Shown: positions 1-30,419 of the stretch, one piece after another
How positions within the stretch are numbered: position 1 is the first letter of the stretch
Layout: each line of letters begins with the position of its first letter
The notes under the pieces: generated by a model
Seen by the model: only the letters and a program-made list of their open reading frames with translations
The model's database searches: none
Told to the model about the DNA's origin: nothing
Translations under genes and position numbers: made by a program
IMG/VR virus record: IMGVR_UViG_3300035181_001051
Coordinates: 1-32,846 of that record
Length of the DNA stretch: 32,846 nucleotides
DNA from: a virus
Strand: one strand, 5' to 3'

Positions 1-18
1 TAAGGGTATCTTATATGG
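1..18 (+). promoter_or_regulatory. Motif A, candidate phage RNA polymerase promoter (copy 1, cut by window start)
   Basis: The core TATCTTATATGG occurs here and at 27914-27940 and 28400-28426, each time just upstream of a gene start. An AT-rich stretch followed by GG resembles the melting and start region of promoters read by T7-type single-subunit RNA polymerases, and such a polymerase is encoded at 2113-4386. The upstream half of this copy lies outside the window. That it is a promoter is inferred from position and repetition. Confidence 0.5.
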
Positions 19-8315: not shown

Positions 8316-10248
8316 ACGTTATGTAGTAGACATAGAAACAGATAGTTTATTAGTTGAGTGTACAAGATGCTGGATAGTAGCAGCATATAATATTGACACA
8401 CGTGAGAAACATTATTGGCTAGAAGGAGACTTTGGTTGGAAAAGCTTCTTAGATGGAGCAGATACAATAATTGGGCATAACCTGTTGGGCTTTGACATGC
8501 CAGCTTTAGAGAAACTTTTTGGGTACAAGTTACCAGCTTCTGTTAGTGTGCATGATACACTAATATTCTCTATTGTACTGAACTACAAACGGTTCGACAA
8601 CGGGAGTCACAACTTAGCTACATGGGGCGAATCCTTAGGTTATCCTAAAGGTCACTTCGAAGACTTTTCTCATTACACCGAAGAAATGCTCACCTACTGT
8701 ATTCGAGATATTGAGTTAACAGCTAAGGTCTACGCAGTAGTATTGAAAGAATTCAGAGCGTTAGCTGAAGTAAGCCCTCAAATAAGGCACTATATGCGTG
8801 CTGAACACGCTGTAGCTAGGTGGTGCGCTATGGCAGAACGTACGGGCTGGCCTTTTAATAAGCCTGAAGCTGAACGATTGATGGCTGAGATTGATGAGGT
8901 TATTAGTAAGACACACGACAAGCTTATGCCATTGCTAGGGAGTAAGGCTATACCTATTGATAAGAAGCTTGGAGTAGTTGAAGCTAAAGCTCCTAAGTGG
9001 AATAAGAATGGTTCTTACGCATCTAATACGGCCAGCTGGTTCGACATCGACCCTCTTACAGGGCAAGATGAAGACCGATTGATTGAGGGTGAATATTGTA
9101 GAGTAGCATTCGCTGATCTTGATGTGAATAGTGTGAATGATGTCAAGATATTCCTATATCGAAACGGGTGGCAACCTACAACTTTCAATTCAAAGAAAGA
9201 CCCTCTAACTGGGAGAAAAGTTAAAACTTCAGCCAAGATAACAGAAGACAGCTTAGAATGTATGGGAGGAAATGGTCAAGTTTATTGCGAATTCCTAACT
9301 AATAAATCTAGATATTCTATTATTAAAGGCTGGGTAGAAGCTTGTAAACCAGACGGAACTATCCATGGCGGTTGTTTTACTATCGGTACGCCTAGTATGA
9401 GAGCTAGGCATTCGTTAATTGTTAACGTACCAGCAGCTGATAGTGTTTGGGGGCCAGAGATAAGGCGTTTGTTTATTAGTAAACCTGGTTGGAAAATGAT
9501 AGGTTGTGATAGTGCTGGTAATCAAGCTCGAGGTCTAGCACATTACTTGAAATCTCCAGAGTATACTAATCTTCTACTGAATGGCGATATACATAGCTAT
9601 AATGCAGCTGCTTTGAATTCTGTGCTAAGAAGTATGGGGATTGATTGGGATGACTACTTAGTGGCGCAAGGTGTTACAGCAGACGCAGACCACACACTAG
9701 CCCAGAATGTAGCCAAACGCAAGCGAGGCAATGCCAAACGCGTGCTGTATGCCTTCCTCTTCGGCGCAGGCGGCGACACGTTGTGGAGTTACATATTTGG
9801 TGCCCCGAATAAAACATTAGGGGATAAGCTCAAAAAAGGATTCTTAAAATCTACTCCAGGGTTTAAAGAGTTAATGTCTAAGTTAGAAAATATTTATGGG
9901 AAGACTAAACAGTACGGGAGTGGTCATGGGTATATCCCTGGAATCGCTGGTAACAGGATTTACTGTGATAGTTTTCACAAGCTTCTTGTGTATCTCCTAC
10001 AGGCATGTGAGAAAGCTACTTGCAGCGCAGCTTTAATGTTAACAATGGAACGTCTCGAGGCTGCTGGAATTCCATATCAGCCATGTATAATGATGCATGA
10101 TGAGGAGGATTTCTTAGTACCTGAAGAGTTCGCAGAGCAAGCTGCAGCAATAGGTAAACAAGCATTTATTGATGGGCCGAAACTATTTGGAGTAGAAATT
10201 ATGGATGGTGAGGCGAAGATTGGCGATAACTGGTATGAAGTTCATTAA
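8308..10248 (+). CDS. Family A DNA polymerase with 3'-5' exonuclease (T7 gp5-like)
   Basis: The protein is 646 residues from ATG 8308 (GAGG at 8298-8301; ATG 8305 is also possible). T7 gp5 has 704. Proofreading motifs are intact: DIE (Asp8, Glu10), HNLLGFD (Asp63), YCIRD (Asp134). Polymerase motif A is CDSAGNQAR (Asp401), motif B RGNAKRVLYAFLFGAG (Arg473, Lys477, Tyr481), motif C MHDEED (Asp598, Glu599). The stretch at about residues 215-290, between the thumb halves, corresponds to the thioredoxin-binding region of T7 and is a little shorter. The motif A position that is Glu480 in T7 is Gln406 here. It is the replicative polymerase. Confidence 0.97.
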   Translation: MAKRYVVDIETDSLLVECTRCWIVAAYNIDTREKHYWLEGDFGWKSFLDGADTIIGHNLLGFDMPALEKLFGYKLPASVSVHDTLIFSIVLNYKRFDNGSHNLATWGESLGYPKGHFEDFSHYTEEMLTYCIRDIELTAKVYAVVLKEFRALAEVSPQIRHYMRAEHAVARWCAMAERTGWPFNKPEAERLMAEIDEVISKTHDKLMPLLGSKAIPIDKKLGVVEAKAPKWNKNGSYASNTASWFDIDPLTGQDEDRLIEGEYCRVAFADLDVNSVNDVKIFLYRNGWQPTTFNSKKDPLTGRKVKTSAKITEDSLECMGGNGQVYCEFLTNKSRYSIIKGWVEACKPDGTIHGGCFTIGTPSMRARHSLIVNVPAADSVWGPEIRRLFISKPGWKMIGCDSAGNQARGLAHYLKSPEYTNLLLNGDIHSYNAAALNSVLRSMGIDWDDYLVAQGVTADADHTLAQNVAKRKRGNAKRVLYAFLFGAGGDTLWSYIFGAPNKTLGDKLKKGFLKSTPGFKELMSKLENIYGKTKQYGSGHGYIPGIAGNRIYCDSFHKLLVYLLQACEKATCSAALMLTMERLEAAGIPYQPCIMMHDEEDFLVPEEFAEQAAAIGKQAFIDGPKLFGVEIMDGEAKIGDNWYEVH

Positions 10249-13711: not shown

Positions 13712-13900
13712 ATGCAAAAGAAGATGGTAGACCGTAATCCTATAACAGGAGCTTCATTACGTACAGGGGTAGCGTCAAAGTCCTATCAAGATAATTATGA
13801 TGCAATATTTAATGCAGAACGTCAATGTGAGTCCTCATTGACGGCTAATCCTAACAATTTACTAAAGAAGGAAATAATTAATGACAACAGCGATAATTGA
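13712..13900 (+). CDS. Unknown 62-residue protein upstream of exonuclease
   Basis: The ATG follows CGGAG. The protein is polar, with PITGASLRTGVASKSYQDNY near the N-terminus. It overlaps the exonuclease gene by 20 bases, and the exonuclease ribosome binding site (AAGGA) lies within it. No family is recognised. Confidence 0.7.
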   Translation: MQKKMVDRNPITGASLRTGVASKSYQDNYDAIFNAERQCESSLTANPNNLLKKEIINDNSDN

Positions 13901-14828
13901 CGGAGATGTAGTAGCCTACATGTGTTGTAGAAATCGCATCCCTAAGGTTGATGGAAAGGTTTTAATATTAGAGACACTTCCAGAGTACACTCCAGAAGAG
14001 GATGCAGCATACTTCGAAAGCTCTTGGATACGCTTTAAAGAGATTGTAAAAGAGTTGTGTGAGTTGTGTTTCACAGATAACTACCAAATGGCTGTAAAAG
14101 GGGAGGGCAACTTTCGAGATATAATATATCCTGAGTACAAAGCTAATCGGAGTGCTAACGTACAAAAGAAGAACCCCTTTGTTCCTTTGCTCCGACAAAG
14201 AGCTGTAGACGAGGGATTGGCAGTTCCTGCTGATGGTATGGAAGCTGACGACTACCTGCGTATTTGGCAGCAAGAGCACGTTGCGCAAGGAAAAGACTAC
14301 GTGATATGCTCAATCGATAAAGACTTACGTTGTATGCCTGGGCGTCATTATTTAATGCATCAAAATACTTTCTTAAATGTAACTGAGGAGTACGCGATGC
14401 GCTTTTATTATGAACAACTTCTTAAAGGTGACCCGACAGATAACATTAAAGGTATTCCTCGCGTTGGTGATAAGAAGGCTAAAGATTTATTAGTCGGCTG
14501 TATCACTGAGCTGGATTTTCAGACAACAGTTATCCATGCTTATCAGGCAGCTTTTGAAGAAGCTGATTGGAAACGTGAGCTTCTCCTTACAGGACGTTTG
14601 ATTTATTTATTGAAGACGTTTGACGATGAATTCACATTAGATGGCTGGCCTGAGCTTGAATATCAGAGGCCTGTGGAAGCTGAAGTAAAAGCTAAGAAGA
14701 AGAGGAGTGGTAAGGCAGTTGATGTCGAGGAGGCTTTAATTAAAAATTCAGCTACTAGCGAATTCACAACTTCCGTGAAAGCTGCGCCTACAGTAAAAGC
14801 GAGTGATATAAAATGGCCAACATTATAG
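13881..14828 (+). CDS. 5'-3' exonuclease, FEN family (T7 gp6-like)
   Basis: The protein is 315 residues (T7 gp6 has 300). Metal-binding motifs appear in order: IDGD (Asp7, Asp9), FRDIIYPEYKANR (helical-arch basic residues), MEADD (Glu121, Asp123, Asp124), SIDKDL (Asp146, Asp148), and GDPTDNIKGIPRVGDKKA (Asp184, Asp187, then the helix-3-turn-helix). It should remove RNA primers and degrade host DNA. A Lys-rich linker and a less conserved 60-residue tail follow. The end overlaps the next start by 16 bases. Confidence 0.93.
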   Translation: MTTAIIDGDVVAYMCCRNRIPKVDGKVLILETLPEYTPEEDAAYFESSWIRFKEIVKELCELCFTDNYQMAVKGEGNFRDIIYPEYKANRSANVQKKNPFVPLLRQRAVDEGLAVPADGMEADDYLRIWQQEHVAQGKDYVICSIDKDLRCMPGRHYLMHQNTFLNVTEEYAMRFYYEQLLKGDPTDNIKGIPRVGDKKAKDLLVGCITELDFQTTVIHAYQAAFEEADWKRELLLTGRLIYLLKTFDDEFTLDGWPELEYQRPVEAEVKAKKKRSGKAVDVEEALIKNSATSEFTTSVKAAPTVKASDIKWPTL

Positions 14829-15079
14829 AAAGATCTTGGGAGTATTACGAAGGTCTAGAGAGGATACATGAGGGCGACCTGTATGAATTCGCTGTATTTA
14901 ACCCTGGCCATTATAGTACAGTACAAGACGCTGTAGCGAGTGATGCTGTGTATAGTTGTAGATATAATTTTAACTCTAAGATAGCTGTCCATGCTTTTGT
15001 AAATGGAGTAATGACAACGCAAGTTTGCTTGAATACAAGAATTAGAATTATCTATCGATTACTTAGAGCCGCTAAGTGA
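14813..15079 (+). CDS. Unknown 88-residue protein
   Basis: It starts inside the exonuclease gene. Aromatic and acidic at the N-terminus (WEYYEGLERIHEGD), it ends basic (RIRIIYRLLRAAK). No family is recognised. It is followed by a 180-base noncoding stretch with a predicted RNA structure. Confidence 0.65.
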   Translation: MANIIERSWEYYEGLERIHEGDLYEFAVFNPGHYSTVQDAVASDAVYSCRYNFNSKIAVHAFVNGVMTTQVCLNTRIRIIYRLLRAAK

Positions 15080-15080
15080 T

Positions 15081-15098
15081 GTTTAGAGCACTCTAAAC
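15081..15098 (+). promoter_or_regulatory. Perfect inverted repeat GTTTAGAG-CA-CTCTAAAC
   Basis: An 18-base palindrome begins one base after the stop of the upstream gene. As RNA it forms a 7-bp hairpin with a GCAC loop. GCAAAAAGAAA follows, so it is not a standard terminator. It could also be a dimeric protein site on DNA. Confidence 0.6.
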
Positions 15099-15113
15099 GC
15101 AAAAAGAAATCTG

Positions 15114-15211
15114 CTCGGCTAGGTGGGAGTGTCAGGTAGCTCGATACAGCCCCGCCTGCTGCAACCTAGCAAGCCTCTTTTGGGCAACCCGAAGTTACAC
15201 TTCCAAACGAG
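15114..15211 (+). ncRNA. Predicted pseudoknotted RNA in a 180-base noncoding gap
   Basis: GCTAGGT (15118-15124) pairs with ACCTAGC (15164-15170). GGGAGTGT (15125-15132) pairs with ACACTTCC (15197-15204, one G-U), crossing the first helix, which makes a pseudoknot. Nested are GTAGC/GCTGC (15136-15140/15158-15162) and a TTTTGGG-CAA-CCCGAAG hairpin (15178-15194). CTCG/CGAG (15114-15117/15208-15211) may close the whole. The strand order P1-P2-P3-P3-P1-P4-P4-P2 is that of HDV-like ribozymes, and CGAA (15190-15193) lies near where their catalytic C sits. However, I see no P1.1 GG/CC pair and no G-U at the P1 start. Class unknown. Confidence 0.5.
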
Positions 15212-15259
15212 AGCTAGACTTCGAGTTTTACAAATTCATTCATAAGAAGGATTAGCAAT

Positions 15260-15568
15260 ATGTATTCAGCAAAAGGCGCAAGATATTTGTCTGAAGTAGC
15301 GAAAGAGAAGAAGGAGAGGATAGCTTTCTATAAGATTTCTCAGAGTACACATCTTGGGAAAATCTTTGAATTAATTGATGAAAGTGTTGTAAAGGCTGTT
15401 TCGGAAGGACGTGATTCAACCAGCATTCTCTTGCTGGAAATTACAGAAGTGATGGGTGGGAAGCTTCGTAGCACTTCTTCGTTAAGATCCCTCCTTGAAG
15501 ATTTAGGTTATGAAGTAGGCATGACATTCTCTCCTGATAAAATTAAGATCTCTTGGTCTGGAAAATAA
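15260..15568 (+). CDS. Unknown 102-residue protein downstream of the pseudoknot RNA
   Basis: The ATG follows AAGAAGGAT. The protein is a basic helical head (RYLSEVAKEKKERIAFYK), a central helix, then a small alpha/beta end (LRSLLEDLGYEVGMTF, then IKISW). The end resembles a small winged or double-stranded domain found in other phage proteins. Function unknown; it is the gene most likely affected by the upstream RNA. Confidence 0.75.
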   Translation: MYSAKGARYLSEVAKEKKERIAFYKISQSTHLGKIFELIDESVVKAVSEGRDSTSILLLEITEVMGGKLRSTSSLRSLLEDLGYEVGMTFSPDKIKISWSGK

Positions 15569-15893: not shown

Positions 15894-16469
15894 GTGGAAA
15901 AACCTAAGTTTGTACTACCAACTGCGTTAATAGGTATTGCGGCGGTTCCTGTTAAAGCAAAGGTAGTAAAAGTATCATTAGAAGGAAAAGTAGGCTCCAG
16001 AGTAGACCCTACGAAGTATCGCGGAAATGGTCATTGGCAATTTCCTGAGCCTCTAGGTGCTAAAGGTTATATAGGTTTCATTTATATTATTCGTGATGTA
16101 ATGACAGAGAAACTCTATCTAGGCAAGAAGCAATTTAAAGGCCTTGGAAAACTTAACAAAGGCGAAGATTCTAACTGGCGTTGGTATATCAGTTCTAGTA
16201 AAGAATTATCCCAAAGCATAAAGACACATGGCAAGCATAACTTTGAGTTCATAGCAATAGAGCAATATAAGAGTAAGGGCGGCTTAAGTTACGCAGAGAG
16301 CTGGTCATTGTTTGATGTGCAGGCTTCTATTAATCGCGATATTTGGTATAATCTTTTAATTAACAAAGTATCTTGGGTTGTTAAAGAAAATATAACTGAA
16401 CGACATAAAGAGAGAATGCTTATGATGTTAAAGGCTGTGGATGCACACAATCGTGTTACAATTAATTGA
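15894..16469 (+). CDS. GIY-YIG endonuclease, SegE-like
   Basis: The protein is 191 residues with a GTG start directly after the upstream stop; GGAGG lies at 15885-15889. Residues about 62-135 carry the GIY-YIG core in its SegE-type form: GFIYIIRD, then KLYLGKKQF, then WRWYISSSKELSQSIKTHGK and a Glu in YAESW. A basic N-terminal extension and a helical tail flank it. Phage relatives include homing endonucleases, and no intron is evident here. It could also cut host DNA. Confidence 0.75.
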   Translation: MEKPKFVLPTALIGIAAVPVKAKVVKVSLEGKVGSRVDPTKYRGNGHWQFPEPLGAKGYIGFIYIIRDVMTEKLYLGKKQFKGLGKLNKGEDSNWRWYISSSKELSQSIKTHGKHNFEFIAIEQYKSKGGLSYAESWSLFDVQASINRDIWYNLLINKVSWVVKENITERHKERMLMMLKAVDAHNRVTIN

Positions 16470-27913: not shown

Positions 27914-27940
27914 CTGCGCAAAATAGGGTATCTTATATGG
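27914..27940 (+). promoter_or_regulatory. Motif A, candidate phage RNA polymerase promoter (copy 2)
   Basis: This 27-base element ends in TATCTTATATGG and begins CTGCGCAAA. It matches the copy at 28400-28426 over its full length apart from the central AATAGG/ATAGTA variation. It lies 55 bases before the 33-residue membrane gene at 27995. Equal spacing between the CTGCGCAAA and TATATGG blocks in both copies supports a single protein footprint. Confidence 0.6.
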
Positions 27941-28096: not shown

Positions 28097-28100
28097 CTCT

Positions 28101-28203
28101 TGTAACCTGCTGCGAGGTTGGTGCTGTCGGAGCTTTTAGGGTGCGCCTGAGAGGGTAGCCATCCTGAAGTTCTGAAGTGTGCAGGGAGTGTCCTGTTGTT
28201 ACA
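28101..28203 (+). ncRNA. Predicted multi-hairpin RNA region
   Basis: TGTAAC (28101-28106) can pair with GTTACA (28198-28203). Inside are GGTGC/GCGCC (28120-28124/28143-28147), AGGGT/ATCCT with an AGCC loop (28152-28156/28161-28165) and CAGG/CCTG (28182-28185/28192-28195). AACCT/AGGTT (28104-28108/28115-28119) competes with the outer helix. No long reading frame spans it, and AGTTCTGA is repeated at 28168 and 28208. It may be a structured leader or an RNA gene; I recognise no class. Confidence 0.4.
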
Positions 28204-28214
28204 GCGGAGTTCTG

Positions 28215-28229
28215 ACCCCGTTAAATTAA
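28215..28229 (+). promoter_or_regulatory. Motif B (copy 2): ACCCCGTTAAATTAA
   Basis: Identical over 15 bases to copies at 6182 and 30176, and it shares TGATA downstream with the 30176 copy. A hairpin follows at 28253-28289. Function is unknown. Confidence 0.5.
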
Positions 28230-28252
28230 TGATATACAGTTTTAGAAATACA

Positions 28253-28289
28253 CCCGTTGAGCTGACGCCTAAATAGTGTCCACAACGGG
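28253..28289 (+). promoter_or_regulatory. Hairpin downstream of motif B
   Basis: CCCGTTG (28253-28259) pairs with CAACGGG (28283-28289) across a 23-nt loop. A smaller GCGG/CCGC stem (28292-28295/28303-28306) follows. There is no T tract, so termination is unlikely. Confidence 0.45.
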
Positions 28290-28399
28290 ATGCGGCTAGT
28301 ACCCGCCTTAAGTTCGTTGAAGAAAAGCGTTATGAGAAAGCCTGGAAACAGTAGCGAACAATACGGCTTGACTTTTAATTATTTCAGAGCAAATAATAA

Positions 28400-28426
28400 C
28401 TGCGCAAATAGTAGTATCTTATATGG
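28400..28426 (+). promoter_or_regulatory. Motif A, candidate phage RNA polymerase promoter (copy 3)
   Basis: This copy carries CTGCGCAAA and TATCTTATATGG at the same spacing as copy 2. If transcription begins at the final GG, the leader is only about 12 nt before the leader peptide ATG (28437). GGAG at the end of the motif would then serve as a ribosome binding site. It drives the 28477 gene. Confidence 0.6.
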
Positions 28427-28436
28427 AGAAGCAATA

Positions 28437-28475
28437 ATGCATATCCAAACTCAATTTTATAAAGGAAGTAAATAA
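28437..28475 (+). CDS. 12-residue leader peptide candidate
   Basis: ATG 28437 lies ten bases after GGAG of motif A. The peptide MHIQTQFYKGSK ends one base before the next ATG and covers its ribosome binding site (AAAGGAAG). Translation of the leader would deliver ribosomes to the 28477 gene. Confidence 0.4.
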   Translation: MHIQTQFYKGSK

Positions 28476-28476
28476 C

Positions 28477-29606: not shown

Positions 29607-29617
29607 TTACTAAAGCC

Positions 29618-29699
29618 GCCCACTGCTGCACATATATTTCCCTTAATTGGGCGATATATGTGCAGCAGTGGGCTTCTTTTTTTTTTTTTTTTTTTTTTT
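29618..29699 (+). terminator. 20-bp perfect hairpin plus 23 T
   Basis: The 20 bases 29618-29637 (GCCCACTGCTGCACATATAT) are exactly complementary to 29654-29673. The loop carries an additional CCC/GGG pair (29640-29642/29649-29651). GGCTTC then leads into 23 T (29677-29699). This is the strongest terminator in the window, and its stem is long enough for RNase III. It separates the regulatory region from the metallopeptidase-like gene. Confidence 0.92.
29677..29699 (+). repeat. Homopolymer of 23 T
   Basis: The run directly follows the hairpin at 29618-29673 and precedes GAGG (29700-29703), the ribosome binding site of the next gene. Together with the 30-T run at 1847 it makes two extreme T tracts in one genome. 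Confidence 0.95.
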
Positions 29700-30090: not shown

Positions 30091-30175
30091 CTACAGAAAG
30101 GGTCACGATGTAATCTCTTCTGACCGATAACGGAGTCCTTAAAACAAAGGGTTTGTATCTATTTCTGCTTACCAG

Positions 30176-30190
30176 ACCCCGTTAAATTAA
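30176..30190 (+). promoter_or_regulatory. Motif B (copy 3): ACCCCGTTAAATTAA
   Basis: The third identical copy, within the 329-base gap 30091-30419. As in copy 2, TGATA follows. Base-paired segments at 30206-30252 lie downstream. Confidence 0.5.
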
Positions 30191-30205
30191 TGATAAGGCT
30201 GCTCT

Positions 30206-30252
30206 CCCCTGTATCTAAGGGTATCCTAGAGGGGTGCCCTAAGACCCCTTAG
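30206..30252 (+). promoter_or_regulatory. Overlapping alternative hairpins, possible attenuator
   Basis: CCCCT (30206-30210) can pair with AGGGG (30230-30234), but the same bases form AGGGGT/ACCCCT (30230-30235/30244-30249), and CTAAGGG/CCCTTAG (30215-30221/30246-30252) competes with both. TAAGGGTATC, followed by a degenerate TATGG, resembles motif A here. An AT-rich tail, not a T run, follows. Confidence 0.35.
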
Positions 30253-30419
30253 TTATTAGTTATTATATAATATAATATAAGAATATAAAAATAAAAGAAA
30301 TATTATAAATTCTTGTTACACTGCTAGGTTGTTGAAGTAGCCTACGGATTATTTCCCTCCGATTGAGGTTGAATATAAAGCAAATTGCTTTCCTATAGGT
30401 CAAATTGAAAGGAACAAAA

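Follow-up and report, generated by a model that had tools for sequence, protein, structure and literature searches.

A candidate structured, probably pseudoknotted non-coding RNA in the exonuclease/GIY-YIG interval of a clade of phages

Introduction

In T7-type phages, intergenic mRNA structures such as RNase III sites are found between genes, and gene 32 of phage T4 has a pseudoknot operator. In HDV-like ribozymes the first base pair is usually a G-U wobble. Among the theta ribozymes, a tRNA-associated subset cleaves at most 5 nt from the 3' end of the tRNA (PMC10879173).

The DNA analysed here is a stretch of 32,846 nt from a virus (IMG/VR record IMGVR_UViG_3300035181_001051), in the following called the window. 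A preliminary description had drawn a pseudoknotted RNA at 15081-15211, with the strand order of HDV-like ribozymes. We compared this locus with related phages and with the described systems. The element is clade-conserved, non-coding and probably pseudoknotted, with no ribozyme recognisable in it.

Genomic setting and conservation

The window is tightly packed with genes, and the element lies in a non-coding gap of 180 nt. The element and all neighbouring genes share one strand. The features of the locus are as follows.

13881 to 14828, plus strand: 5'-3' exonuclease gene, one border of the syntenic interval
14813 to 15079: 88-aa ORF upstream of the gap
15080 to 15259, plus strand: non-coding gap of 180 nt, from the 88-aa ORF to the 102-aa ORF; the three plus frames score as non-coding
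15110 to 15211, plus strand: GC-rich core holding the proposed RNA (57% GC; genome 39%)
15260 to 15568: 102-aa ORF downstream of the gap
15894 to 16469, plus strand: SegE-like GIY-YIG endonuclease gene, other border of the syntenic interval

The coding scores of the forward frames of the gap range from -0.28 to -0.54, compared to 0.55 +/- 0.21 for pieces of genes.

Related contigs were gathered via three proteins (exonuclease, GIY-YIG and primase); several of the long ones were inspected over their full length. The gene order exonuclease, GIY-YIG, primase is maintained in this block. Where the exonuclease is at least 53% identical, the interval from the exonuclease to the GIY-YIG gene contains a non-coding segment rich in GC in all sampled phages (8/8, a count that takes in the window by construction). 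These are the window, G001 (L002/L057), G002 (L016/L067/L068), L058, L060, L061, L066 and L105/G006; L058 is counted among the eight although two reading frames are open across its segment. With exonucleases less than 53% identical, GC-rich gaps in this interval were seen in one of 70 loci (L091), where they look like missed ORFs bearing their own ribosome-binding sites. A GIY search of bacterial genomes returned none. The segment is hence GC-rich and non-coding, its position is kept in the eight sampled clade members, and it is absent from more distant relatives. Since phages pack their genes tightly, a GC-rich non-coding segment kept by all sampled members of the clade points to a working RNA.

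The genes beside the element are not the same throughout the clade. The window has the 88-aa and 102-aa ORFs there, G002 has genes for an HNH endonuclease and a protein of 149 aa, and in L066 the element is adjoined by the GIY gene itself. Such differences between neighbours argue against a riboswitch or operator of one gene, and for an mRNA element at the operon level or a trans-acting RNA. In several clade members, the start codon of the next gene follows soon after the element.

Database searches left the element unassigned. Rfam gave no match to the window element at gathering thresholds or at E 10, and most of the related elements were likewise unmatched at gathering or permissive thresholds. 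BLASTN against phage records, with the window and L066 elements as queries, yielded no match. The gap has no match to either of two motifs taken as phage promoters, and neither a promoter nor a terminator of its own was recognised in it.

Promoter-like and terminator-like sequences were observed elsewhere. The motif GTATCTTATATGG occurs in three exact copies in the window (6-18, 27928-27940 and 28414-28426), two of them preceded by CTGCGCAAA; it is also present in G001, G002 and G003, and it has the look of a promoter used by this group of phages. An identical 21-mer, GACCCCGTTAAATTAATGATA, is found at 28214-28234 and 30175-30195 of the window and nearly identical in G001 and G002; it is likely a promoter of the phage RNA polymerase. 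Further GC-rich or structured non-coding gaps surround these promoter-like repeats (28097-28476 and 30091-30404). Probable terminators lie at 1805-1877 and 29615-29699, each a strong hairpin with a T run of ~20-30 bases behind it, and G001 and G002 have hairpins with T runs of like design.

Neither ARAGORN nor Rfam found a tRNA or a tRNA-like cloverleaf in the element, and the window is without tRNA. A tRNA-like reading, based on the acceptor-like 7-bp P1 and a GGUA loop, was rejected, as ARAGORN finds none and L066 lacks these features. In another locus, L046 14577-14977 (G001 73977-74377), a large structured non-coding segment lies beside a tRNA cluster; it has a T-arm-like end that ARAGORN does not call.

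When examined as a possible fragment of a group I intron, the window element did not match Rfam Intron_gpI. Elsewhere in these phages, genes seem to be interrupted. The RNA polymerase gene of G006, G008 and G010 is split into three or four parts, in the manner of introns, and that of G009 (61142-64102) forms one frame of 1022 aa that carries an intein-like insert. The primase/helicase is interrupted by about 0.9 kb in L020/L021 (L021 8873-9783) and read as an unusually long frame in L066 (6427-9033) and L078 (5592-8195), which suggests an intron or inteins.

Similarity between the elements

The elements of the window, L066 and G002 resemble each other more than expected by chance. The similarity of the window to L066 and to G002 is reached in 1 of 400 shuffles each, and that between L066 and G002 in none of 400. 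When the L066 element was compared with 191 non-coding gaps of eight genomes, its two best matches were the window and G002 elements. The conserved letters are GTCAGGTARC in the window and L066 (GTCAG in G002), together with a G-rich run preceding them.

15131 to 15140, plus strand: GTCAGGTAGC, best conserved stretch; L066 counterpart GTCAGGTAAC, G002 GTCAG

Five 6-mers are present in at least four of seven elements (0.8 expected; 0/200 shuffles), and GTCAGG, CACTCT and CTGGCC are among the recurrent ones. In addition, GAGCACTC, from the hairpin at 15080-15099, is common to the window, L060 and G001 elements.

The elements of L060, L061, G001 and L105 could not be aligned confidently to that of the window. 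An apparent similarity to L105 was discarded, as it comes from the AT-rich flanks (p 0.30 for the core). L105 itself holds a structured segment at 8408-8525 (46% GC in a locus of 30% GC), in which CCTGAAGTGT/ATACTTCAGG crosses TGCAAG/CTTGCA. A covariance model of the trio of window, L066 and G002 (R1) found only its three source members in 1.4 Mb of related sequence. A DNA pattern for the 3' motif gave no match, and one for the 5' motif of L066 and G002 gave 37, of which those that look homologous lie only in contigs already known.

Predicted fold of the window element

All four helices of the preliminary description (P1, P2, a nested stem and a hairpin) were found in the letters at their positions. 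P1 (7/7 Watson-Crick pairs) and P2 (8 pairs, one G-U) do cross, and they abut without a gap.

15080 to 15099, plus strand: hairpin TGTTTAGA-GCAC-TCTAAACG, strong, 7-8 bp, directly after the stop codon and within the range first described
15118 to 15124, plus strand: predicted P1 5' strand, GCTAGGT, pairing with 15164-15170
15164 to 15170, plus strand: predicted P1 3' strand, ACCTAGC
15125 to 15132, plus strand: predicted P2 5' strand, GGGAGTGT, pairing with 15197-15204 and crossing P1
15197 to 15204, plus strand: predicted P2 3' strand, ACACTTCC
15133 to 15158, plus strand: P3, nested stem of 4 bp, CAGG (15133-15136) with CCTG (15155-15158)
15178 to 15194, plus strand: P4, hairpin TTTTGGG-CAA-CCCGAAG, arms 15178-15184 and 15188-15194
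15138 to 15144, plus strand: AGCTCGA, predicted 5' strand of a possible third crossing helix, marginal
15221 to 15227, plus strand: TCGAGTT, predicted 3' strand of the same helix, marginal

P4 has seven pairs, two of them G-U, with a stacking energy of -10.9; at the aligned place, L066 has TGGC-CTA-GCCGAA.

The summed stacking energy of P1 and P2 is -28.1 kcal/mol. A crossing pair at least as stable was obtained in 53 of 500 dinucleotide shuffles of the 180-nt gap, and the energy was matched in 47 of 500 shuffles of the 131 nt first described and in 11 of 364 genomic segments of 180 nt. By these counts P1 and P2 alone are not significant, and at such rates a scan of 33 kb would yield a figure of this kind by chance. 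The window ladder of P1, P2 and AGCTCGA/TCGAGTT is marginal (34/1000 shuffles; 16-46/1000 across four parameter settings). Nested minimum free energy folding gives another fold than the one drawn, with z scores of -1.97 (180-nt gap) and -1.19 (core).

Crossing helices in related elements

The clearest pseudoknot was seen in L066, where TACGGCAT/ATGCCGTA (8 bp) crosses GGTCAGGTAACAGTCG/CGACTGTAACTTGACC (15 pairs, one mismatch). This crossing pair reaches -41.4 kcal/mol compared to a shuffle mean of -27.0 (0/150 shuffles). A further helix, CTGTGAGGGGCA/TGCCGCTCGTGG, precedes it and extends the crossing to a three-helix ladder (0/1000 shuffles). The ladder test was designed after L066 had been seen, and the window figure of 34/1000 is the fairer one; the ladder of G002 is not significant (about 100-180/1000 shuffles).

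The check for covariation that had been proposed was carried out by scoring the drawn structure against an alignment of the three elements. Three pairs are changed on both sides, where 1.5 are expected (53/500), a weak signal. The drawn structure pairs 72% of the cells compared to 33-45% when slid, the window being its own template and contributing one third of the cells. At several aligned positions of G002 and L066, the P2 pairing is lost. Any helix-to-helix correspondence between L066 and the window is tentative, and several folds compete. It is likely that the family shares a crossing fold.

The claim of a pseudoknotted RNA thus stands in part: it is backed by the clade-wide position, GC content and non-coding character and by the L066 pseudoknot, and the helices in the window are at chance level. 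A structured, probably pseudoknotted RNA is predicted within 15080-15259, and we infer that the window copy folds by P1 and P2. A more specific model, which we regard as doubtful, is a new clade-specific RNA family exemplified best by L066. Its three helices would all cross one another, the 5' strands following in the order a-b-c and the 3' strands after them in the order A-B-C, and the RNA would either adopt a higher-order pseudoknot of a rare type or act as a relay that exchanges strands while it is being transcribed. L066 is a clean candidate for the probing of a complex pseudoknot.

A proposed role on the polycistronic mRNA

The reading that we prefer, with a probability of roughly 0.5, is a clade-specific structured RNA that acts on its own polycistronic mRNA. 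It would be a non-coding RNA confined to a single clade of phages that have a T7-type RNA polymerase, located in the exonuclease/GIY-YIG interval and presumably transcribed within the polycistronic mRNA of the gene block. The RNA probably folds into a pseudoknot and would work as RNA, in cis. As a stable block between the upstream genes and the next cistron, it could set an mRNA end, or limit decay or ribosome access. Such an element would be a previously undescribed structured RNA of phages with T7-type polymerases; if it is merely a cis element of the mRNA, its interest is modest.

Alternative explanations

A small RNA or decoy acting in trans, for instance against host defence, and processed from the operon transcript, is a tentative possibility. 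The RNA stays where neighbouring genes vary, and its sequence diverges fast, as an arms race would give. However, the gap has no recognised promoter or terminator of its own, and no long complementarity to the remainder of the phage was found. With moderate confidence, we favour a cis element over a trans-acting RNA.

That the segment is a GC-rich spacer with no functional fold, its helices being chance pairings, appears rather unlikely. It would agree with the 10% of shuffles that match the helices first drawn, with the weak covariation and with the several competing folds, but it leaves unexplained that genomes with few gaps keep the segment in 8/8 sampled members, that no shuffle in 1000 equals the L066 fold, and that short motifs are common to the elements.

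A self-cleaving ribozyme, HDV-like or of another class, had been offered as one option. The HDV-like features were taken from the theta ribozyme paper (PMC10879173) and from general knowledge. The strand order P1-P2-P3-P3'-P1'-P4-P4'-P2' is present as drawn, with a 7-bp P1 (GCTAGGT/ACCTAGC) that has a G, 15118, at the cleavage site, and a crossing P2 of 8 bp, though at chance level. The absence of P1.1 and of the cleavage-site G-U, already noticed, holds: the first pair is G15118-C15170, AA follows P1, and L3 has no UU that could form P1.1 with the nucleotides just after P1. Instead of a 3-bp P3 whose 3' strand abuts P1, the window has 4 bp and CTGCA between P3 and P1. CGAA had been placed in the joining region; it lies at 15190-15193, on the 3' side of the 7-bp stem P4 with its C paired, and falls into a junction, seven nt ahead of P2, only if P4 is shortened. 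In the aligned G002 it is lost (CTGAA). The tRNA proximity of the tRNA-associated theta ribozymes is missing, and Rfam ribozyme models gave no match at E 10. A descriptor of P1, P2, P3, P1.1 and CNRA had no match in the seven elements, which by itself is weak evidence, the descriptor being self-made and run without a positive control. Taken together, an HDV-like ribozyme is not supported, and a ribozyme of any class is very improbable.

Equally improbable is a riboswitch or autoregulatory operator of the next gene. The element does precede a start codon that has a Shine-Dalgarno sequence, but the next gene varies among most members and Rfam is unmatched. G002 and L061 have a downstream gene in common, and a link of the RNA to this gene was rejected, because L283 carries a homologue with no such RNA upstream. 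A short GC-rich coding gene overlooked by gene callers is hardly credible: there is a 40-codon GTG ORF at 15123 and L058 and L066 have open frames, but all plus frames of the window score negative, stops occur, and no peptide is conserved across the members.

Comparison with known systems

The cis-acting element that we propose resembles the RNase III sites of T7-type phages and the T4 gene 32 operator in being a structured segment that separates genes on a polycistronic phage mRNA; some of the known segments are pseudoknots as well. It differs from them in its larger size and higher GC content, bears no demonstrated resemblance to them in sequence, and is followed by a gene that is not conserved. 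Compared to HDV-like and theta ribozymes (PMC10879173), the window lacks P1.1 and an abutting P3, the first pair is G-C, no tRNA lies at the cleavage side, no covariance model matches and CNRA is not conserved; it shares with them crossing P1 and P2 helices, a nested P3, a P4 (optional there) and an intergenic site in a phage. ToxI-type RNAs (PMC3475682) differ from the window element, which has no tandem repeats and no recognised toxin gene adjacent; like them and their phage mimics, it would be a small phage RNA pseudoknot.
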